A stretch of 32,441 nucleotides of DNA. Origin: a virus. Made by a program: the position numbers and the translations under genes. Positions 3,606-32,441 of this stretch are shown piece after piece (the first letter of the stretch is position 1; every line of letters starts with the position of its first letter). The notes beneath the pieces were generated by a model, which saw only the letters and a list, made by a program, of their open reading frames with translations, ran no database searches and was not told the DNA's origin. The stretch lies in IMG/VR virus record IMGVR_UViG_3300028388_002207, positions 1-32,441 of that record. One strand, given 5' to 3'.

Positions 3606-4030
3606 ATTTGGCCGAAGCTAGACAGACCATCGAAACATATCTGAACACGAATTGGAGCCACACTCCTATTGTGTGGGAGAACACGGATAGTTACGCCTTC
3701 GATGGCTCCCAACCTTTCCTCCCCTCTGGAGACGCCCACTACCTCCACACCTCTATTCGTTGGAACGGAACCGAACCTCACGCAGTTCCTGCTGACGGGT
3801 GTAAAATCACAGAAGGCGTCCTTAGCTTTAGAATAAATATAAAGAAGTCTATAGGCACCAAATATTTAGAAGAGTACACCGATTACTTGATGGGCTTGTT
3901 TCAAAGTAAACCAGTCTCGTCTGTCGATGGCTCTGTTAGGTTTCAAAATACGTCGTCCACTGTTGAGTATAATACAACCGGATGGTACGTAAGAGAGGTT
4001 TCTTTTAACTTTTGGTTTACCTATAGCTGA
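3602..4030 (+). CDS. Tail terminator protein
   Basis: A 142-residue protein with the length and outline of siphovirus tail terminators (lambda gpU/DUF4128 type). It has an N-terminal helix that begins as A-R-Q-T-I-E-T-Y-L, a W-x-x-T-P-(I/V)-x-W-E-N-T motif at about residues 17-28, a central strand ending in an R-I-N-I segment, a helix including Y-L-M-G-L-F, and a C-terminal strand with WYVREVSFNFWFTYS. The terminator caps the tail tube when the tape-measured length is reached and provides the head-binding face. Its position immediately before the major tail protein supports this. Translation is coupled to the upstream gene through ATGA. Confidence 0.82.
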   Translation: MNLAEARQTIETYLNTNWSHTPIVWENTDSYAFDGSQPFLPSGDAHYLHTSIRWNGTEPHAVPADGCKITEGVLSFRINIKKSIGTKYLEEYTDYLMGLFQSKPVSSVDGSVRFQNTSSTVEYNTTGWYVREVSFNFWFTYS

Positions 4031-4038
4031 GGTATAAA

Positions 4039-5088
4039 ATGACTTGTGCAAGTTATGGTTCTTCTTCCAATACCGCTCTCTTTTATCAACTAGACGCGGA
4101 CCCTTCTGCTGCGATTCCTACTGCTCTGACTTGGGCTCCTGTACCGTTCACCAGTGAATCTCTCGATGCGCAGCTTAGCTCCACGATATCTGAACAGATC
4201 ACACCACAACGCTCTTACGCCAACTCTAAACTCTCTCAGGGTGAGGTAGGAGGTAACGTCGGATACGAAGTTTTTGCTGGCACCTTCATGGAGAACATGT
4301 TGATTGCCGCTTTGCAGGCTAACAAAACAATGATTCTCCCTGGGGACACCCGTGGGGCTGGCAATTGGGCAGACGCTGAAGCTCTGACGAATGGTTCTAC
4401 TAATCATTGCTTGATGTTCCTGAAGAGAGTGCAAAACGCGGCTGGCAATTACGATATGTACATCTATCGTGGTTGCCAGATAGGTTCGCTCTCTATGACT
4501 ATTGAACCAGGGAACCTGATCACTGGTGACATTTCTATCATGGGTACTGGCCTTGGTAACGGGGCTACTGCTGTCTATGAAGACGTTGCTCCAGACGGTG
4601 GACCTCTCGGAGTAGGCAAGTGGGAGTGGGGTACGCTTGGAGAAAACGATCTCATGTCTGGTGTTGACTCTCTGAAGAACTTCGAGATTCAGAATTCGTC
4701 TGGAACCGATCTAGGAATTATTCCTCAGAACGTCAGTATCACTATCGACAACCAGCTGCGTCAGCAGTTCGGTGTTGGCACTGGCAGCATCTACGCTGCA
4801 GGTGTTGCTTCTGGCAGATTCATGACTTCTTTCTCTCTGTCAGCTTATTATGCTAATCCCGCTATCTTTACTAACTTCACTCAAGATACTGAGGTAAAAG
4901 TTGTGTTTGGGTTGAAGGACAGTTCTGGTATTGGCTTCGATGTTCTGGCAGACAAATGTAAGATCACGTCTGGATCGTCCCCGATGGCTGGTGGGCCTGA
5001 CCAGGATCTTTTGATCTCTACAGAGATCAGAGCGTTCGAAGATGACACGCATGGTACTGTTAAGTTCACTCTTGACTTGACCACGTAA
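4039..5088 (+). CDS. Major tail (tube) protein
   Basis: A 349-residue protein of the siphovirus tail tube type. It shows the pattern S-E-S-L-x-x-x-x-S-x-x-I-x-E-x-I-T-P-Q-R (about residues 34-53), then G-E-V-G-G-N-V-G-Y-E-V-F, a typical tube-protein core, and a repeated beta-strand C-terminal domain that may be a surface decoration. GAGG is six bases ahead of the ATG. Codon choice differs from neighbours: CTG, CGT and AAC are favoured over TTA and AGA, which fits a very highly expressed virion protein. A strong hairpin (5113-5130) follows the stop, consistent with separating its message from the low-abundance chaperone gene downstream. Confidence 0.85.
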   Translation: MTCASYGSSSNTALFYQLDADPSAAIPTALTWAPVPFTSESLDAQLSSTISEQITPQRSYANSKLSQGEVGGNVGYEVFAGTFMENMLIAALQANKTMILPGDTRGAGNWADAEALTNGSTNHCLMFLKRVQNAAGNYDMYIYRGCQIGSLSMTIEPGNLITGDISIMGTGLGNGATAVYEDVAPDGGPLGVGKWEWGTLGENDLMSGVDSLKNFEIQNSSGTDLGIIPQNVSITIDNQLRQQFGVGTGSIYAAGVASGRFMTSFSLSAYYANPAIFTNFTQDTEVKVVFGLKDSSGIGFDVLADKCKITSGSSPMAGGPDQDLLISTEIRAFEDDTHGTVKFTLDLTT

Positions 5089-5112
5089 TCGCGGCATCTG
5101 CCGTATAACTGA

Positions 5113-5130
5113 CCCCCGGCAAACCGGGGG
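5113..5130 (+). terminator. GC-rich hairpin after major tail protein
   Basis: A perfect 7-bp stem (CCCCCGG / CCGGGGG) with a CAAA loop lies 24 bases after the major tail stop. No U-run follows, so it is not a classical intrinsic terminator. It may attenuate transcription or protect the 3' end of the abundant tube-protein mRNA. The next gene's ribosome site (GGAG at 5142-5145) lies just downstream. Confidence 0.65.
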
Positions 5131-5153
5131 TATAACCCCTTGGAGACATAACA

Positions 5154-5603
5154 ATGTCGTTTGATCTTGAAGAAATCATTGTAGATGAGAAGCTAGCTAA
5201 AGAAGGCGTTTGGTTTGACTTCTACGGTGATAGTAAACTTCTCATAGCTTCTAAAGAGAATGGCCTCTATCGCGCAGAGATGGCTAAGCTCGCTAAGAAG
5301 TACGAGCTTCAGTTGAGCCGTAACGGAGATGACTACGATAAGACTCAGCTAGTGACCCGGCTTACTGCAGAAGTGACTGCAAAGGTTCTTCTTCTTGACT
5401 GGAAGAACATTAAGTGGAACGGTGTAGAAAACGCCCCCTATACGTGGGAAGCTGGGCGTGATGCCCTGCTCAAAAGCTCTACTCTGTCTGAGTTTGTGAC
5501 AAGTAAAGCTGAAGACACCTCCAACTATAAGGAGGTTTTGATTGAAGAAGTAAAAAAGCCCTCGAATGGCACCTCTCTTGGGGACCAGCCAAAGATGTCT
5601 TGA
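5154..5603 (+). CDS. Tail assembly chaperone G (0-frame product)
   Basis: A 149-residue acidic/amphipathic protein between the tube and tape measure genes, the standard place of the lambda gpG-type chaperone, with the usual length. It helps load tube subunits onto the tape measure. It has a good GGAG site and ATG 5154. Its 3' end carries a slippery A AAA AAG heptamer at 5552-5558 in the correct phase (gtA AAA AAG). A fraction of ribosomes should therefore leave this frame and make the longer GT protein. The 0-frame tail after the slip site is about 14 residues, rich in Ser/Gly. Confidence 0.85.
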   Translation: MSFDLEEIIVDEKLAKEGVWFDFYGDSKLLIASKENGLYRAEMAKLAKKYELQLSRNGDDYDKTQLVTRLTAEVTAKVLLLDWKNIKWNGVENAPYTWEAGRDALLKSSTLSEFVTSKAEDTSNYKEVLIEEVKKPSNGTSLGDQPKMS

Positions 5604-5935
5604 TCCTTAGCTATGAGCGTACAGGGATTGTACCTCCGGCTTGGGAAAACAAACCTGAGATTACTCCAGAGGTAGAATTCTATCTCTGGAGTTTTAATAC
5701 GTTAAGCAGGTATCGTGTTAAATCTCTAGGTGGAATGGGAGGAGGCTATGGGTCTATCACTTGGGATATGGTCCGCGACTTTTGTACATTGGTTGGCTTC
5801 AGTAAACCAGATGAAATTTTTCTGATGCTGGAAGTGATTGCTGCTTGTGATCAAGTTTATCTTGAGTATCAAGCTAAGTCAGCTGAAAGAAAGGCTAAGT
5901 CTCAAAAGAAGCCGATAGGAAAAGCGAGGCGCTGA
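5154..5935 (+). CDS. Tail assembly chaperone GT (-1 frameshift fusion)
   Basis: Predicted fusion of the G protein (135 codons to base 5558) with the overlapping -1 frame, giving about 260 residues. Re-reading G5558 continues as GCC CTC GAA TGG and runs without interruption into the downstream frame that ends at 5935. The T part has the family flavour: Y-E-R-T-G-I-V-P-P-A-W then W-S-F-N-T-L-S-R-Y-R, and a basic C-terminus (KAKSQKKPIGKARR). In lambda and relatives the GT protein bridges tube subunits and the tape measure. The downstream frame alone would need a weak TTG start at 5600, so the frameshift is the more economical reading. Inferred from sequence; not experimentally shown here. Confidence 0.85.
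5529..5558 (+). promoter_or_regulatory. Programmed -1 ribosomal frameshift site
   Basis: The heptamer A AAA AAG (5552-5558) is in the 0 frame as gtA AAA AAG, the strongest bacterial -1 slippery class, known from dnaX. A perfect anti-SD-pairing AAGGAGG lies at 5529-5535 with no start codon to serve, 16 bases upstream of the heptamer. Internal SD sequences near 10-15 bases upstream are known frameshift stimulators. A downstream structure is weak (possible TGGC/GCCA pairing at 5567-5592). Confidence 0.85.
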
Positions 5936-5936
5936 A

Positions 5937-8900
5937 GTGGCATTTGAAATCCCAATTGTATTTAGTGCAGAAGGGGAGGCGGCAGTACAAGCGCTGCTTA
6001 CTTCTTTCACTAGAGACGCTAAGCGCCTATCTGAAGAGCAGATTAAAGGGATCAACCAAGCTGCGCAGGCTGCGCAGAAGATGGACCTAGTCAGTGATAA
6101 GATGGAGAAAAACAGCAAGGATGCTGGGAAGGCCGCAGAAGATGCGGGAAACAAAACATCTCAAGCTTCCTCGCAAGCTAGTAGAAGTGTAGAAAGTCTT
6201 AACGCTGAGCTAGTTAGACATCTAGGACTCTTAAAAGAGTTGGGAGCTAGTCAAGCTGCTATTGGCCAGATTGCAGCTGGTGGTACTTCGAACGCTTTGG
6301 GGGGTACAATAAGTGCTGATGAGCGCAGAATAGCGCGCTCTCTGCAAGACATGGCTGAATATAACAGGGAATTACAGGCTCTCGCTAACAAGTTAGATGT
6401 AGCTAGAGAACGGCAAAGAGGGTTAGGCGATGCGATGCAGAAGCAGGAGCTTGCTACAGTTCGTATAACGAAAGCTAACAAAGCTTTTAATGCCGAGATG
6501 TACGCTGCTGCCCAAGCTGAACAAACCTCTATCATTAGAAAGAAGGCATCTATTGACGCGATAGAAAGACAGAATAGGGCCTTAGCTACGGCTACAGCTA
6601 AGAACCAAGAATTTTCAGCCGCTTCAGCACTGGCTACAGAACTTCAGAAACAGGAACTATCTACCAAGCAGCAAACCGCTAAGGCTCAGGCTACACTAAC
6701 TACACAAATGAGCGCTGGGGTTGCTAGGCTTAATGAGTATAAGGCAGCAATCGCTAATCAAAACGAAGTCCAAAGAACTCAGATACACTCTCTCACAGCA
6801 GCAACCAAAGCCGAGCAAGAAAGACAGAGAGCACAGGACGCATCAGCTGCTAAGTTAAAAGCTTACAACGCTGATAGAGAAAAACAGATCTCCATTGATC
6901 AACAGCTTCTTAAGTGGAAGCAAAAACTGACAGCTCTAGAAGCTGCTGAAGCATCTTCTGTCCGTGCAGCACGCGCGGAATACGAGAGAAAAGCAGTAGC
7001 CGCAGGCATCCTTTCAGCAAATACCTCCCGAGCTGCAGCCGCAACGGGTCTTCACGCAGCCGCACTCGCCGTCGAACGCCAAGCCATGGCCGCAACTCGG
7101 GCCACTATGTACGGCTTGGGGGCCTCCATCGGTATCTACACCGGGGCGACGCTGGCCCTCGCAGCCGCCGTCTACGGCTCCGTGCGCGCCGTCAAAGAGG
7201 CGGTGAAGGTTGGGGCCGAGTTCGAGGACGCACTGGCGTCTGTGGCTGCTGTGAGCACCACAGCGGCATCAGGCACCAACGAATACCAGAACACGCTCAC
7301 CAAGATCGGCCAGAAGGCCGTCGATGTGTCCTCCACGTCTCGTTTCATGGCAAGCGAAGTCGTCGCCGCCATGAAGGAACTTGGCATGGCCGGTCTTGAT
7401 GCCGAGCAATCTATGGCTGCCGTAGAAGATACAATGAAAATGGCAGCTATTGGAGGAATTGAATTTGGGCGCGCTGCCGATATTGCTACAAATATATTGT
7501 TTGGCTTTAGGCTCGGTATTGGAGATCTTGGTTATGTCATAGATGCAATGGCCTATGCAGTAACTAATTCTAACCAAACTATTGAGCAACTTGGTAACTC
7601 TCTATCGTATGTAGCTCCGGTTGCAGAATCCTTTGGCTTGGGATTGGATACTGTTGTAGCGGCTACAGAGGTACTTGCTAACTCAGGTATTAAGGCAAGT
7701 CGTGCAGGTACTGGTCTTCGTCGTATTCTTCTCAGAGTCTTCGAACCTGTAGAAGCAGGTAAGAAAGCATTTGAAAACTTGGGCGTCTCTATGGATGAGA
7801 GCCTTGGTGGTGCTGATGCATTCATAGATTTACTTGAGCAATTATATGCAGCGACTGGAGGAGTAAACTCCGGTGTGGGCGAACTGGCAAACATCGTTGG
7901 TGTTAGAGCTGCACCTGCATTTATCCAGTTAGTTAAGTCAGTAGGTCTCGGAACTAAGTCTATCAGGTCTCTTAAAGATGAGCTAAGTGAGTCAGGAGTC
8001 TTGGGTGCTTCTGATGACATGTTCAGAAAGGTCAGTGATACACTGAAGACTGATTGGCTTGAAGCTCTTGGTGCTGTTGAAGGCGCTTTTGTCCAAGCGT
8101 TTGACTTTATAAAAACAGATTTGCGAGACGTTGTACAGAGTATAACGGCCACTATTAGAGCAATTACCTTTGACCCTTCAACCATACACCAACTTACAGA
8201 AGGGTTTAGGTCTTTTGCCATAACCCTAACTAACGTAGTACCACAGATAGTCGCATTCTATGGTGCCTATAAAGCTTTACAATTCGTTATAGCAGGAGGG
8301 AAGGCTTTTTCTTCTGCTACGACCAAATCTGCTGCATTTTTTGCTCAAATAAAAAGCGGTACAAAAGATTTAAAGAAGTCTTCTACTATTGTAGACCAGT
8401 ACGGTAATTCTTTAGCAGCGATAGACAGGAACGCTAAAAAAGCTAGTTCAGGCATAGCTCTAATAGGAGGTAAACTAGGCAAGCTAGCTAAATCTTTCGG
8501 CGGTATCGCTGCTACTGCTGGAAGATTGGTTGGTTGGACCTTGGCTTTGTCAGCTGTTGGTTTTGTAGTAGGCAAACTTGGTGACTTGGGTAAAGCTTTC
8601 GAAGGTAATGCAGAGAAAGCTGAAAGACTGAAGAAACAGTTCGAAGAACTTTCTGAAGCTCGTGATACTGCTGGGTCTTTCGAAAGACAAATATCGCAAC
8701 AAACTTCAGAGCTGCAAAACTTAGAGAAAGAGCTTGCGTTAGCTCAGGAAAGACAGGATAACTTTGCTACTCCTGCCAATACAGCTAGGATACAAGAACT
8801 TAAATCTGCAATCGCAGAAACAAAAACGGAATTGGCGGAATTTACTAAGCAGTATGAGTTGTATAATTTAGCTGCTGAAGAAAAAGATTTACAAATAGAG

Positions 8901-18278: not shown

Positions 18279-18985
18279 GTTTTTTCAGCGCATCAGCAGG
18301 AGCCGTAAAAAAACTAAACGATAAGTTGACTACGGCTAGGGCCAATCTTCTTGATAACTTATCTACGATTCTTACTCACACAGGTAATCTAAATACAAGA
18401 CTCACTGCTGATAGAGCCGGCTATCTAGATGCTCTAGATATAGGTGTACCTGTTCAACCAAGAGTTGCGGTTTTTACCTCAACTGGTTATTGGGTAGTTC
18501 CTAACGGGGTGAATAGTGCTATCTTTACTCTTCTTGGGGGAGGTTCTGGAGCCACTTCTGGAGTTGCAGGTGCAGCCGGTGGAGTGATCTACCGAATGGT
18601 TCAGAAAGTAACTCCAGGGAACTCTATTCTAATCACAATAGGAGCAGCTGGAGCCGGTCAGGTAGGAACTAATACTTATGCAGAAGCCGCAGCTATTGGT
18701 GGCGCAACAGTAGTGATGAATATGGCTGCCTTTGGCGGCACAACAGGGGGTGGGGGAGGTTATATTGGTGTTGGTCAAAACGGAAGAAATGCTTCCGGTA
18801 TTAATGGTGCTACCTCAGGATGGGGAGGCGGAGGAGCTGGTAAAGAAGTCCCAGTAGCGGAGGCAGGTGATAATGCTACTGGGTTTGCTGCTGGCGGTGG
18901 TAAAGGCGGGTCTAGTGGTGGTATTACACCCACTCTTTATAGAGGAGGGAATGGCTCTCCAGGTTTGTGCATCATTGAGTATTAA
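18275..18985 (+). CDS. Glycine-rich tail fibre tip / adhesin
   Basis: A 236-residue protein. Residues 1-60 form a helical segment, then the strand V-F-T-S-T-G-Y-W-V-V-P-N-G-V opens a glycine-rich domain. That domain contains GGGSG, V-T-P-G-N-S-I-L-I-T-I-G-A-A-G-A-G, GGGGGYIGVGQNG, GWGGGGAGKE and a terminal G-N-G-S-P-G-L-C-I-I-E-Y. This is the known layout of Gly-rich phage adhesin domains, which form polyglycine-II helices and carry variable receptor-binding loops. It probably decides outer-surface receptor specificity. It is followed by a small chaperone-like gene, as expected for fibre modules. Confidence 0.82.
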   Translation: MSFFSASAGAVKKLNDKLTTARANLLDNLSTILTHTGNLNTRLTADRAGYLDALDIGVPVQPRVAVFTSTGYWVVPNGVNSAIFTLLGGGSGATSGVAGAAGGVIYRMVQKVTPGNSILITIGAAGAGQVGTNTYAEAAAIGGATVVMNMAAFGGTTGGGGGYIGVGQNGRNASGINGATSGWGGGGAGKEVPVAEAGDNATGFAAGGGKGGSSGGITPTLYRGGNGSPGLCIIEY

Positions 18986-29141: not shown

Positions 29142-29659
29142 CGATTGTCGCCGTCTCCTTGAATAACTCCGCGAGCTTTTCTTGAAGAAAGCTTATTGAC
29201 ATTTGTGTCTAGGATCTCTTGCATATCTCCTGTAGTAAAAGTGACATGCTTTAAGATTAGCAGGGTTGAGAGATAAATGTCACCTAACTTATATTCATTA
29301 TCATCTCTTAGATACTTCTTACAAGATTCTGCAACAGTCTTAATGTTTTCAACATAATTAAAAAACGGCTGTCCATCTACTACGTTTAGCAGCTTTGGGT
29401 TTTTTTCTAACTCAGCCTGAAGAGCAGACAACCACGAATTGCCAGTAATGTTCCCGCATGTAAAGATCAAACGAACTCCGTACCAGTATACATCCCCAGC
29501 TTCCTTAAGAATTTCTTCCTCACCATCGCACTCCAACCACTCTGCGTATTCTCCAATCAAACCAAAGCAAAGGTAAGAAAGCTCGTCTGGATTTCCTGTC
29601 CCCATCCCAGGGTATACAGCAGTAGAGTTAGTGAACAGCAGGTATTCAGTCAAGTTCAT
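29138..29659 (-). CDS. MazG-like nucleotide pyrophosphohydrolase
   Basis: A 173-residue all-alpha NTP pyrophosphohydrolase. Metal-binding helix pairs E-x-x-E (Glu37, Glu40 in L-I-G-E-Y-A-E) and E-x-x-D (Glu53, Asp56 in K-E-A-G-D-V-Y-W-Y) are intact. The C-terminal N-x-x-K-L-x-x-R-x-x-R-G segment is also typical. The start ATG 29659 has GGAG at seven bases; a GTG/upstream start would lie inside the previous gene. It likely hydrolyses (d)NTPs or alarmones to NMP and PPi, adjusting the pool for the phage polymerase or countering stress signalling. It lies directly upstream of the DHFR-like gene, overlapping by four bases. Substrate unknown. Confidence 0.85.
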
Positions 29660-29864
29660 TGATGAACTCCTCAATATCGATGATAGTTTGTTCTAGATAG
29701 TTGAGTGCGAAATTGCCAGCAAAGGAACTAGCCCTGTTCCTGAAGTAAGCTTCCACATTTTTCTTGGAGTCTTTAGCTTTTACCAACAGATCCTCAGCAA
29801 TAAATTTTGCGAGAACAGGATCAGCTTCCGGTATTTTAAACGTTACTACCTTTTCGTTAATCAT
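29646..29864 (-). CDS. Small hypothetical protein
   Basis: A 72-residue helical protein with no recognisable motif. An N-terminal strand (E-K-V-V-T-F-K-I-P) is followed by two or three helices and an acidic C-terminus. It lies between the XRE regulator and the MazG-like gene with short overlaps on both sides, consistent with operon membership. It might be a small structural partner or inhibitor, but nothing in the sequence says so. Confidence 0.7.
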   Translation of the reverse strand: MINEKVVTFKIPEADPVLAKFIAEDLLVKAKDSKKNVEAYFRNRASSFAGNFALNYLEQTIIDIEEFINELD

Positions 29865-30156
29865 CGTAGTTAAGCTCTCCTAGCTGAGCGTCATAATAGT
29901 CTTTTAGCTCCTTTAAACAAAGCAGTTCTTCTACTGGGGTCTTCAGGTAATAAGCTAGAATAACTGCTACATCATTAGGTAGGGTTCTAATACCTTGCTC
30001 GTAGTTACTTATCCTGCTCTTACTAAGCCTCCCTCCTGTAGCTCTAGATAGCTGTCCTAGAGTGATATCCATAGATTCTCTCACGGCTTTAAGCTTTCCT
30101 CCTACATGCTTATTGAAGTCACTAATTCTTTCAAGTTTCTTTTCTTCATTCATCAT
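29857..30156 (-). CDS. XRE-family (Cro/CI-type) transcriptional regulator
   Basis: A 99-residue protein with an HTH_3 domain at about residues 20-75: K-L-K-A-V-R-E-S-M-D-I-T-L-G-Q-L-S-R-A-T, S-K-S-R-I-S-N-Y-E-Q-G-I-R and P-N-D-V-A-V-I-L-A-Y-Y-L. This is a standard Cro/CI helix-turn-helix; there is no separate effector domain, only a short acidic tail. Start ATG 30156 is chosen because AAAGG lies eight bases upstream; the GTG at 30165 is closer than the site permits. It probably regulates early transcription, perhaps through the nearby palindrome (30729-30741), although that link is a guess. Confidence 0.85.
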   Translation of the reverse strand: MMNEEKKLERISDFNKHVGGKLKAVRESMDITLGQLSRATGGRLSKSRISNYEQGIRTLPNDVAVILAYYLKTPVEELLCLKELKDYYDAQLGELNYDD

Positions 30157-30517
30157 TGTTGTCACCTTTAAAGTTGACTAAGTCTTTATAATCTTCAAGC
30201 AATTCATGCATGTTATCATGCGGATTAATACAAAACCCCAAGTCGTCTAACGAAAAACAGATGTCGCTGCATTCCTCACAAAAATATTTATCTGCTAGTG
30301 GAATCTCCCCTTCCTCAGTGTATATCTTCAGCTCTATTTCTGTGGCAGGTATTTTAAACCGCTTCACCACGGAACAGATAGCGCCCACTTCTATCAGAGT
30401 GTTGCAGCTCATGCATCTCTGTCTTTTCTTTGTATTTAGGTTGGTGTAATTTTCAGGCTGATAAGCTACTGTTGTTCCCGGTTCTGGGTCAAAATCGCAG
30501 TAACACGATAGTCCCAT
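30146..30517 (-). CDS. Cys-rich putative zinc-binding protein
   Basis: A 123-residue acidic protein with three Cys clusters: C-Y-C at residues 5-7, C-M-S-C (about 35-38) and C-E-E-C-S-D-I-C (about 80-87), consistent with a zinc ribbon or treble clef. It overlaps the XRE gene by 11 bases. Function unknown; proteins of this kind are common in phage early regions. A large stem-loop (30545-30602) lies upstream in its leader. Confidence 0.7.
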   Translation of the reverse strand: MGLSCYCDFDPEPGTTVAYQPENYTNLNTKKRQRCMSCNTLIEVGAICSVVKRFKIPATEIELKIYTEEGEIPLADKYFCEECSDICFSLDDLGFCINPHDNMHELLEDYKDLVNFKGDNNDE

Positions 30518-30544
30518 AGATCTATTCCTCAGCTATTAAAAGGA

Positions 30545-30602
30545 GCCCCCACCACACGCACACCAGACAGAACAGATTGATTAAAAAACGTGCAGTGGGG
30601 GC
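30545..30602. other. Large stem-loop with GC-rich arms
   Basis: An inverted repeat of 14-base arms (30545-30558 and 30589-30602): 8 bp perfect GCCCCCAC/GTGGGGGC, a 2x2 CA/CA mismatch, then 4 bp CACG/CGTG, closing a loop of 30 bases that contains a T6 on the - strand. It lies between the tRNA-Arg and the Cys-rich gene. Possibilities are transcript processing, a terminator (TCCTTTTAA follows on the - strand) or a leader element. Confidence 0.6.
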
Positions 30603-30608
30603 ATTGCT

Positions 30609-30685
30609 TGGCACCCCCGGTAGGATTCGAACCCACAACCTAAGGATTAGAACTCCTTTGCTCTATCCAGTTGAGCTACGGGGGC
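30609..30685 (-). tRNA. tRNA-Arg (anticodon TCT)
   Basis: Read on the - strand: acceptor stem GCCCCCG with CGGGGGT (one G-U pair), D arm GCTC-GAGC, anticodon stem AAGGA/TCCTT with loop GTTCTAA (anticodon TCT), T arm GTGGG-TTCGAAT-CCTAC, discriminator G and encoded CCA. It reads AGA, a codon that is frequent in the AT-richer genes of this phage and infrequent in many proteobacterial hosts, so it probably supports translation of phage genes. Confidence 0.95.
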
Positions 30686-30687
30686 TG

Positions 30688-30716
30688 AAAATTAGACGTG
30701 GCCGTACTCTAATTTT
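30688..30716. other. AT-rich 9-bp hairpin next to tRNA-Arg
   Basis: A perfect 9-bp inverted repeat (AAAATTAGA/TCTAATTTT) with an 11-base loop lies two bases upstream of the tRNA-Arg 5' end. On the + strand it is followed by a T-rich tract (30713-30728). It could be a transcript-processing signal for tRNA maturation, or a terminator for unseen + strand transcription. Confidence 0.55.
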
Positions 30717-30726
30717 TATTTTTTAT

Positions 30727-31047
30727 TTATTGTGACACAATGAGAGTTTCTTTATTTGCTAATGGGTCTGGTTGTGCAAAATACCGTTGTTTCATCCTGT
30801 CTCTGTCCTTAGCAGTAGGATCAGGCAGCTCGTACGTACCTGTATGAGTACTATCGTACCTATCTTCCCAGAACCTAGGGTCCGTCACATGTTCCTTTAA
30901 CCATGGTGTCACTGCTTCTAGCATCCTAGGTAGCATATGCGTCATCAGTCCTGGATGCCCAGAGATCCATTCAAGATCTTCGTAGACATGTCCCATCTCA
31001 GTATGAAGACGCTCGGTTGTCAAGTTTCTTAGTCGTTGTATATCCAC
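30727..31047 (-). CDS. Hypothetical phage protein
   Basis: A 106-residue protein starting at GTG 31047 with a strong AAAGGAG site seven bases upstream. It is helical in its first half (M-G-H-V-Y-E-D-L-E-W-I) with an H-M-L-P-R-M-L-E-A-V-T-P-W-L segment, and proline/charged in its second half. It lies between two tRNA genes. I recognise no catalytic motif and no named family with confidence. Confidence 0.75.
   Translation of the reverse strand: MDIQRLRNLTTERLHTEMGHVYEDLEWISGHPGLMTHMLPRMLEAVTPWLKEHVTDPRFWEDRYDSTHTGTYELPDPTAKDRDRMKQRYFAQPDPLANKETLIVSQ
30729..30741. promoter_or_regulatory. Operator-like perfect palindrome
   Basis: ATTGTG-A-CACAAT is a perfect palindrome of 6+1+6 bases at the very end of the 106-residue gene, next to a long A/T tract and upstream (on the - strand) of tRNA-Arg, the Cys-rich gene and the XRE regulator. 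It may be a regulator binding site. No clear sigma-70 promoter pair is visible, so this is tentative. Confidence 0.35.
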
Positions 31048-31079
31048 AGTATATCTCCTTTACTTTGTTGTTGGTTAGT

Positions 31080-31156
31080 TGGTGGGCCAGGAAGGATTCG
31101 AACCTTCTATCTTCCGGTTATGAGCCGGTCGCGTATACCACTTATGCCTCTGGCCC
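31080..31156 (-). tRNA. tRNA with CAT anticodon (Met or Ile2)
   Basis: Read on the - strand: acceptor GGGCCAG/CTGGCCC, anticodon loop CTCATAA (anticodon CAT), T arm GAAGG-TTCGAAT-CCTTC, discriminator A and encoded CCA. The D stem has one mismatch and the outermost anticodon-stem pair is not Watson-Crick. The normal G1-C72 pair argues against an initiator tRNA. It could be elongator Met, or an Ile tRNA in which the C is changed to lysidine; the sequence alone does not decide. Confidence 0.88.
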
Positions 31157-31188
31157 TGATAAGCTTGGCGGATTCTATTATCTCATTG

Positions 31189-31344
31189 TTATGAAGATTG
31201 ATCAGCTTCAACGTCAGAAATCGCTTTATCTACAACGTCTTCGATATGATCTCGCAAGTCGTCAGCGCTCATGCGTTCGCCAAGCAGATAGATCAAAGAC
31301 TCAATCCGATCTAAGAGTTCGTCGTTTGTCTCATCAATCAACAT
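31189..31344 (-). CDS. 51-residue acidic hypothetical protein
   Basis: A small gene with start ATG 31344, AAAGGAG seven bases upstream and stop TAA 31189-31191. The product is acidic and helical (D-E-L-L-D-R-I-E-S-L-I-Y-L-L-G-E-R, then D-D-L-R-D-H-I-E-D-V-V-D-K-A-I). The ribosome site and intact frame between a tRNA remnant and the tRNA make it likely real. Role unknown; size and charge would fit an inhibitor of a host factor. Confidence 0.7.
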   Translation of the reverse strand: MLIDETNDELLDRIESLIYLLGERMSADDLRDHIEDVVDKAISDVEADQSS

Positions 31345-31445
31345 AACAAGCTCCTTTATCTAGTGTATAGACGTAATAACACAGAGCTGCACTAGCTCTG
31401 AGCTACCGGCCCTGTGGAGTTTGGAGGGTTCTGTCTATCTCGCTG
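31345..31445 (-). pseudogene. tRNA 5' remnant with hairpin (degenerate tRNA cassette)
   Basis: Read on the - strand, GGGCCGGTAGCTCAG looks like the acceptor and D-arm start of a tRNA (5' end near 31415), but no anticodon arm, T loop or CCGGCCC partner follows. Instead there is a perfect 7-bp hairpin (31382-31400, loop GCACT). The spacer between this remnant and the upstream gene's stop (31409-31450) aligns with the spacer between the intact CAT tRNA and its upstream gene (31153-31194), about three quarters identical by eye. A duplicated gene-tRNA unit whose second tRNA decayed is the simplest reading. Confidence 0.55.
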
Positions 31446-31694
31446 TTATGTGTCACGTTCTGCCTGGTACTCTGCAACAGTTTTGCCAAAATGCTGCTCT
31501 GCACATTCACGGCAATAAAAAACACCGCAATACAGACAGCGATAGGAGTATTTCATTCTGACCATCTTTAAGCACACACACCGAATCGATAGCACTTTCG
31601 ACGGCATATTGTCGTTCTCTTGGGTTCTAATAAACCGCGCCTGGCTTTCCAATATCCCCGCCTGCGTGGTCTGTTCACCAATGTCTAAACACAT
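31446..31694 (-). CDS. Zinc-ribbon hypothetical protein
   Basis: An 82-residue protein with start ATG 31694 and GAAGG seven bases upstream. A C-L-Y-C-G-V-F-Y-C-R-E-C-A motif near residues 53-65 looks like a compact zinc-binding ribbon, preceded by another C-V-C pair. The 5' leader (AGGACTTGTTATG) is similar to that of the 51-residue gene downstream (AGGAGCTTGTTATG), supporting duplication of this unit. Function not recognised. Confidence 0.65.
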   Translation of the reverse strand: MCLDIGEQTTQAGILESQARFIRTQENDNMPSKVLSIRCVCLKMVRMKYSYRCLYCGVFYCRECAEQHFGKTVAEYQAERDT

Positions 31695-31718
31695 AACAAG
31701 TCCTTCCAGTCGGGCGCT

Positions 31719-31979
31719 TCACTCGCTAGCGCTAGTTCTGCGACCCTGAGTTTTAGCGTTAACATCCGACATGCGAGCATAACGTTTTTGCCACTGGTCA
31801 GGTGCGAACGCAGTATCCGTGCATGGACATGTCGCGTTGCCGCATGAAACAAAGCCGCCCACATACGAAACGACGGGATCGTGATTGCAAAACGGACATG
31901 CCAACAAAGAGGTGGACGGCGACATGGAAACCGCATCGACCTCCTCGGTTGATTCGTTGTGTGTATCAGCGGTTTCCAT
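31719..31979 (-). CDS. Lar-like zinc-ribbon protein (restriction alleviation family)
   Basis: An 86-residue protein starting at ATG 31979 (GGAGG eight bases upstream; an earlier ATG at 31994 has no site). The C-terminal 45 residues show the Lar-type ribbon: A-C-P-F-C-N-H-D-P, then V-S-C-G-N-A-T-C-P-C and a closing D-Q-W-Q-K-R-Y helix corresponding to the family's W-N-x-R. Known Lar proteins (prophage Rac) change type I restriction-modification activity to protect unmethylated DNA; most phage relatives are untested. The first 25 residues are a charged, possibly disordered extension. The gene is GC-richer than its neighbours. Confidence 0.7.
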   Translation of the reverse strand: METADTHNESTEEVDAVSMSPSTSLLACPFCNHDPVVSYVGGFVSCGNATCPCTDTAFAPDQWQKRYARMSDVNAKTQGRRTSASE

Positions 31980-32005
31980 GCGCGTCGCCTCCATCGTTAG
32001 CCGTC

Positions 32006-32029
32006 ATGCCGAGCCGCATGGCTCGGCAT
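32006..32029. other. 10-bp perfect hairpin between genes
   Basis: Arms 32006-32015 and 32020-32029 (ATGCCGAGCC/GGCTCGGCAT) pair perfectly around a GCAT loop, eight bases past the stop of the gene to the right on the - strand. There is no T-run on either side, so it is more likely a mRNA-end stabiliser or a factor-dependent terminator than an intrinsic terminator. Confidence 0.6.
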
Positions 32030-32036
32030 AACCTAC

Positions 32037-32441
32037 CTAGCCTTTATAGATCTCGAAAGCCCACGGAGTAAACCCAACCTTCACTTTGGCGCTCTGCTCA
32101 ACCTTCTTACCCTTATAAACTCTAGTCCACACCTCATGAGGGTTAAGACCTTGAGTAAGGATACGCTTGATGTGAGCTTTAAACGCACGACGACTGGCCT
32201 TGGGGATGCTAAGAACTACCGAAGAACCGTCAGTCAGTACCGCTTCTGCCTCAATATACGGAGTGGGCTCTGGGGAGGGCGTGAATCCTTTCTGTCGCCA
32301 CTCTTCAAACGTCTCACTCAAAGGCTTTCCACTGACATCAGTCTGCATATCGTAACTATAGACAGACTCTGCGTTAGCCTGACCATAGGCGATGCCGTTC
32401 GAGTAAAGGTACTTCGGCCTACTACCAAAACCGATCTGAGC
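32037..32441 (-). CDS. C-terminal part of an unrecognised phage protein (partial)
   Basis: The frame is open from the right edge through the stop at 32037-32039, giving at least 134 residues. An internal ATG at 32348 has no ribosome site, so the true start is probably outside the window. The visible part has I-G-F-G-S-R-P-K-Y-L-Y near the edge, a proline-rich stretch, then an Ile/Leu/Lys helix and a beta end (V-K-V-G-F-T-P-W-A-F-E-I). It could be a DNA-binding or structural protein; I cannot assign a family. Confidence 0.7.
   Translation of the reverse strand, partial: AQIGFGSRPKYLYSNGIAYGQANAESVYSYDMQTDVSGKPLSETFEEWRQKGFTPSPEPTPYIEAEAVLTDGSSVVLSIPKASRRAFKAHIKRILTQGLNPHEVWTRVYKGKKVEQSAKVKVGFTPWAFEIYKG

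Follow-up and report, generated by a model that had tools for sequence, protein, structure and literature searches.

Overall organization of the locus

Here we describe a cluster of small genes and tRNA features on the minus strand of a stretch of viral DNA of 32,441 nucleotides (the whole stretch is hereafter referred to as the window). Read along that strand, the cluster comprises a 91-amino-acid (91-aa) open reading frame, an 82-aa gene, a spacer, a tRNA-like stretch, a 51-aa gene, a second spacer, a tRNA-Met gene, a DUF7736 gene and a tRNA-Arg gene. The 91-aa frame (31719–31994) has a weak similarity to Lar that lies under the Pfam cut-off. It meets the 82-aa gene (31446–31694), which encodes a CxxC-rich protein, at an attC-like junction termed site A (31691–31765); the R' of this site, GTTATG, includes the ATG of the 82-aa gene, and its R'' lies within the 91-aa frame, about 40 nt ahead of the stop codon. 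A degenerate attC junction, site B (31342–31451), links the 82-aa gene to the 51-aa gene (31189–31344): its R'', CATAAC, holds the 82-aa stop and its R', GTTATG, holds the 51-aa start. Site C (31152–31193), behind the 51-aa gene, consists of an R''-side half only and runs into the GGGCC of the tRNA-Met gene (31080–31156); no R' was seen downstream of this half. The DUF7736 gene (30727–31047; Pfam PF24875, 58.9 bits) follows, and is a cassette gene in several other phages.

Two spacers lead into tRNA starts

The spacer behind the 82-aa gene (copy 1, 31408–31450, the R''-side spacer of site B) and that behind the 51-aa gene (copy 2, which is site C) form a repeat on the minus strand, with 33 of 43 aligned columns identical and one gap. 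Their local alignment scores 33, whereas 19,750 pairs of segments drawn at random from the window reached 31 at most. On either strand of the window, neither copy has a better match than the other copy; outside the pair, the highest scores are 25 and 23. Both copies begin at the R'' of their genes (CATAACA) and both end in GGGCC, which in copy 2 is the start of tRNA-Met; after GGGCC, copy 1 runs on as GGTAGCTCAG. The tRNA starts behind the two spacers are 256 bases apart in the same register, and in both tails the tRNA, or its start, comes 35–36 nt after the TAAC of R''.

A sequence-only reading of this DNA had noticed that the spacer between gene stop and tRNA start occurs twice, and the pairwise alignment places this identity above background, with bounds that differ by about one base from those it gave. 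That reading had taken the repeat for a duplicated gene–tRNA cassette with similar leaders before two genes. The unit of spacer plus tRNA start is indeed present twice, with one tRNA broken, but a copying of the gene along with it was rejected: the 51-aa and 82-aa proteins are unrelated and give no alignment, and the leaders share merely a common ribosome-binding site, TAAAGGAG. Since the genes in front are unrelated, it is the tail that was duplicated, not the gene.

The tRNA-Met(CAT) gene is intact, with its CCA encoded, and its cloverleaf is recognized by both tRNA models (ARAGORN; Rfam, 53.1 bits with a cut-off of 29). It carries an A where the Rfam consensus has U8, and the intact copy may therefore itself be drifting. 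Behind copy 1, the second tRNA keeps only a 5' part, GGGCCGGTAGCTCAG (31398–31412), which runs into a 7-bp hairpin (CAGAGCT/AGCTCTG, 31382–31400) instead of a tRNA body, in agreement with what the sequence-only reading had described. On a tRNA-start PWM built from the first 15 bases of 34 distinct tRNAs of other loci, this remnant scores 13.5 and ranks second of 64,852 window positions; the true tRNA-Arg start ranks first and the true tRNA-Met start 13th. Scores of at least 13.5 were found at 16 of 3,433,946 positions in other loci, 12 of them within ARAGORN tRNAs and 4 outside. The remnant appears clearly tRNA-like at its 5' end (15 nt) only, because no Rfam tRNA match was obtained there or beyond at E values up to 10 and because the local alignment of its surroundings (56 nt) to the 34 tRNAs surpasses shuffled sequence only modestly (28 of 1,500 shuffles were as good). 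ARAGORN made no call in the same stretch.

Two functional explanations bear on these observations. First, positions 31369–31412 could form a functional structured RNA with a tRNA 5' end, such as a tRNA-like decoy, a processing signal or a terminator-like hairpin. The longer fold around the hairpin (31360–31415) is stable, at −18.8 kcal/mol by RNA folding, and begins at the tRNA-like 5' end, but no conserved relative of 31369–31412 was found and no Rfam match there exceeds the gathering score; we consider a function of this kind very unlikely. At the gathering threshold, Rfam reports two tRNAs only in the window, and nothing in the loci L028–L031 described below. Second, the repeated spacer could be a promoter or an RNA-processing leader for tRNAs, kept for that function, as its position just ahead of both tRNA starts would suggest. 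Against this, 32 kb of sequence contain two copies only, neither of them ahead of tRNA-Arg, and no copy adjoining a tRNA was found elsewhere, which makes this account extremely improbable. The spacer DNA pattern gave seven matches in viral contigs, none at a locus with a tRNA and several of them ribosome-binding sites. A phage-wide promoter repeat was likewise rejected, on the count of two copies in the window.

Genes of the locus in other cassette arrays

Close relatives of the window were found neither by BLASTN against phages nor by polymerase scans of viral contigs. A distant BLASTN search with 29500–32441 returned 319 phage records, and the 40 best listed all match the two tRNAs. Scanning viral contigs with the polymerase alone yielded nothing; with an alignment of five polymerases it yielded 78 loci (24–36% identity in the best segments), in none of which tblastn at E 0.01 detected a 51-aa, 82-aa, 91-aa, 123-aa or DUF7736 product. 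Viral contigs hold no detected relatives of the 123-aa and 91-aa products, and phages none of the 51-aa, 91-aa and 134-aa products; recurrence in other arrays was thus not seen for the 91-aa gene. Eleven loci compared with the window match it only at 30718–31063, 31161–31367 and 31458–31685, that is, in the three cassette genes.

One relative of the 51-aa gene was found, in locus L031 (82% amino acid identity). There, palindromes (TAACG...GTTAGGC or GTTATG) are interspersed with small genes, which is the layout of attC sites. The record (L031 plus L054, 27,256 bases) carries portal, head, tape-measure and tail-fibre genes, and has nothing else in common with the window at a BLASTN E value of 1e-3 or a TBLASTX E value of 1e-5. 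The similarity covers 6 of 6 bases before the ATG (CTTGTT) and 130 of 156 within the gene including its stop, and outside the cassette falls to 8 of 24 further upstream and 11 of 30 past the stop. These limits of homology are the boundaries of an exchangeable cassette, and the 51-aa gene is the one gene for which exchange as a unit bounded by R' (G|TTRRRY) and R'' can be recognized. In L031 itself, three attC-like matches with near-identical starts (1353, 1699 and 3190) extend over the start of a small gene, probably a repeated cassette.

The 82-aa gene has three relatives. That in L028 lies in an array, that in L029 lies outside any array, and L030 gave no match in our stem scan (see below). 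By eye, the last attC of the L028 array (4081–4130) keeps only its R'' half and leads directly into a phage gene; in having an R'' half only, it resembles site C of the window.

The DUF7736 gene has relatives at 27 loci, 26 in viral contigs and one in the genome set. An attC-like palindrome scoring at least 10 lies within 300 nt upstream of the gene at 6 of these loci (L003, L008, L009, L010, L014 and L016, with L009 and L010 appearing to be near-copies), compared with 32 of 3,131 random points drawn from loci other than L003 and L008. At the same score and distance, the other 21 loci have none. The records of L003, L008 and L014 carry portal, terminase or head–tail genes. Thus, three neighbouring genes of the window recur as cassettes in other arrays: the 51-aa gene (L031), the 82-aa gene (L028) and the DUF7736 gene (6 of 27 loci).

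The attC-like sites of the window

An array of gene cassettes has at least two attC sites, each made up of R'', L'', L' and R' in an imperfect palindrome. The window's own attC-like sites are weak. The stem scan found no site in the window at the threshold of 10, with site B scoring 8.5 and site A 4.0. Its background is 23 matches of at least 10 in 890,820 shuffled bases, and at a score of at least 12 it gave a single match, in the L003 record, in 1,362,660 bases of later loci. The scan also hits loci without a visible array (L007, L024 and L029), and a single match is not proof of an attC site.

Half-site matrices were trained on 30 sites of other loci, hand-picked from the stem-scan matches with the strand set by eye. 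Left out of the training were L003 6032, L009 1165 and 3269, L010 (the near-copy of L009), L031 4385, 1353, 3190, 5435 and 1699, and the matches in L007, L024, L027 and L029. By these matrices, the R' side of site A ranks first of 282 GTTA in the window and its R'' side fourth of 282 TAAC; the two sides of site B rank 18 and 12, and the R'' side of site C ranks 40. Among the window's 152 TAAC/GTTA pairs, site A has the highest score (30.1), which 1 of 60 shuffles matched. Site B is second, with a score of 17.8 that was reached by 35 of 60 shuffles.

A covariance model was built from 10 sites of other loci (alignment A5, with a hand-written structure). Alignments A1, A2 and A4 do not enter it, and the A4 sites from L016, L014 (4910) and L009 (4917) were dropped as misaligned. 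Its best match in the window is site A (31691–31765; 12.8 bits, E 0.42); sites B and C were not found. The model's matches in L009, L014, L028, L031 and L043 arise partly by construction; L003, L008, L011 and L016 played no part in its training, and of these L003 gave seven sites and L008 six. The 39 control loci (L051–L062 and 27 of the 78 loci L063–L140; 696,918 bases) gave two matches, both in the L003 record. Site B as a well-folded attC was rejected on its stem score, its shuffles and its absence from the covariance-model matches. Compared with phages, site B gave only 23-nt matches (E about 1) in five Vibrio phages, and its middle gave none.

Sites B and C are counted as putatively attC-derived by position, not by score: R'' (and in B also R') stands at places homologous to the boundaries of intact attC sites in L028 and L031. 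The window's record, which is possibly a fragment, has no match over the family cut-off to the integron integrase model (TIGR02249) and so lacks the integron-integrase gene of a complete integron; ten other records searched, L043 not among them, have none either.

A probable decayed cassette array with tRNA sequence in two tails

On the evidence above, we think it probable that this region of a tailed phage is an array of integron gene cassettes in decay, with attC sites and no integrase. Three of its genes (82-aa, 51-aa and DUF7736) would be cassettes that had moved in the past by exchange at attC, and the most fitting interpretation of the repeated spacer is an attC 5' half, present behind the 82-aa gene and again behind the 51-aa gene. 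Cassettes of one array often have attC sequence in common and different genes, and the tails would be alike while the genes differ because the spacer sits at the position of the attC 5' half. The two tails would have a common origin, each having once held a tRNA 35–36 nt past the TAAC of R''. In the simplest history, one attC tail with its tRNA was copied once and the copies lost different parts, in an order that we can only infer. Behind the 51-aa gene, tRNA-Met would have been kept and the 3' half of attC lost; behind the 82-aa gene, R' would have been kept and the tRNA reduced by decay to its 5' end and the hairpin. Today, tRNA-Met is probably cut from a phage transcript by host tRNA-processing enzymes and probably supplements translation. 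The cassettes would no longer, or only weakly, be mobile, integrase action presumably lying in the past.

The repeat could also stem from a plain duplication of a phage tRNA, in which unequal or illegitimate recombination made a single further copy of spacer plus tRNA and one of the two then decayed; the genes would belong to arrays elsewhere, but the repeat would have arisen without integrons. The weakness of the window's attC-like sites and the lack of an integrase agree with such an event, as does the end of the repeat, which lies only just within the tRNA. It is harder to reconcile with the other end of the repeat, which begins at R'' (CATAACA), where the cassette homology to L031 ends and the attC of L028 begins, and with three neighbouring genes that are cassette genes elsewhere. 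We judge it unlikely.

The tRNA gene may have been nested inside the attC site, between R'' and R', a possibility that we put forward tentatively and with considerable doubt. Site B (R'', remnant and R') and site C (R'' and intact tRNA) would then be two descendants of one site, in a cassette whose body held a protein gene and whose recombination site held a tRNA as a second cargo. Integrases are not known to read the stretch between R'' and R' by sequence. Were the nesting true, tRNAs could spread through phages and hosts by way of integron exchange. None of nine array loci (L003, L008, L009, L010, L011, L014, L016, L028 and L031) gave an ARAGORN tRNA call, so a tRNA-in-cassette mechanism is rare, if it is a mechanism at all. 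The sequence-only reading had named relatives lacking any tRNA at the site as a point against itself, and these loci bear it out in part; none of the nine has both tails of the window.

Phage tRNA genes and tRNA remnants are known in general, and the window likewise has one intact tRNA with CCA and one truncated 5' remnant. Unlike a tRNA cluster, it has them in the tails of cassette genes, at an equal distance from R''. Integron cassettes with non-coding RNA are known too, for example sRNA-Xcc1 of Xanthomonas. The window resembles these in the association of an RNA gene that encodes no protein with cassettes, and differs in that its tRNA would lie between attC boxes and does not form the cassette body. 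Phages often gain and lose tRNA genes, and the route by which these reach the genome is usually unclear; should the attC region of a cassette be able to carry a tRNA, integron recombination would offer a concrete, testable route. Our literature search (titles and openings of abstracts, with few subscription journals covered) found no tRNA in an attC region. Cassette arrays of phages have been published before, and the new element here is the tRNA in both tails. The main text of Qi et al. 2023 (PMC9892861) gives 17 phage CALINs (attC clusters lacking an integrase) for 10,705 phage genomes; of six phage attC sites tested there, five were active with IntI1. Like the CALINs of that text, the window has small genes on a tailed phage and no integrase; the attC-like junctions between its genes differ from the sites there in being degenerate, and two of its tails carry a tRNA or tRNA remnant. 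By term search, the word tRNA is absent from that main text.

Arrays in other records and the flank of the locus

Apart from the tRNAs, phage records with long cassette arrays turned up. In the L003 record (56,348 bases), the stem scan marks 12 attC-like sites in two orientations in about 10 kb (L003 448–7458), and further attC-like sites lie near 18292–18686 of L052 in the same record. DUF7736, of which we found no mention in the literature searched, recurs in phage cassette arrays and could serve to find more of them. Two isolate phages have a DUF7736 gene, Nitrincola phage 1M3-16 and Xanthomonas phage Elanor (L056 and L057); neither gave a stem-scan match of at least 12. L043, a contig of Thiobacillus denitrificans (features at 3915–7540), has an attC-like site before its DUF7736 gene and another, seen by eye, after it. 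Beyond a methyltransferase-like gene that follows the DUF7736 gene lies an integron integrase (457 bits, cut-off 265). A second tyrosine recombinase adjoins a tRNA-Val, which suggests a prophage end, and L043 looks like a prophage carrying an integron.

On the far side of the 91-aa frame, a 134-aa frame (32037–32441, the end of the window) has distant matches in L076 and L086, phages found through their polymerase, and for this reason probably belongs to the phage backbone and not to the array. An inverted repeat (32003–32015/32020–32032, within 31999–32037), with TAACG and GTTATG at its flanks, separates the 134-aa frame from the 91-aa frame; it may act as a terminator or mark where the array ends.
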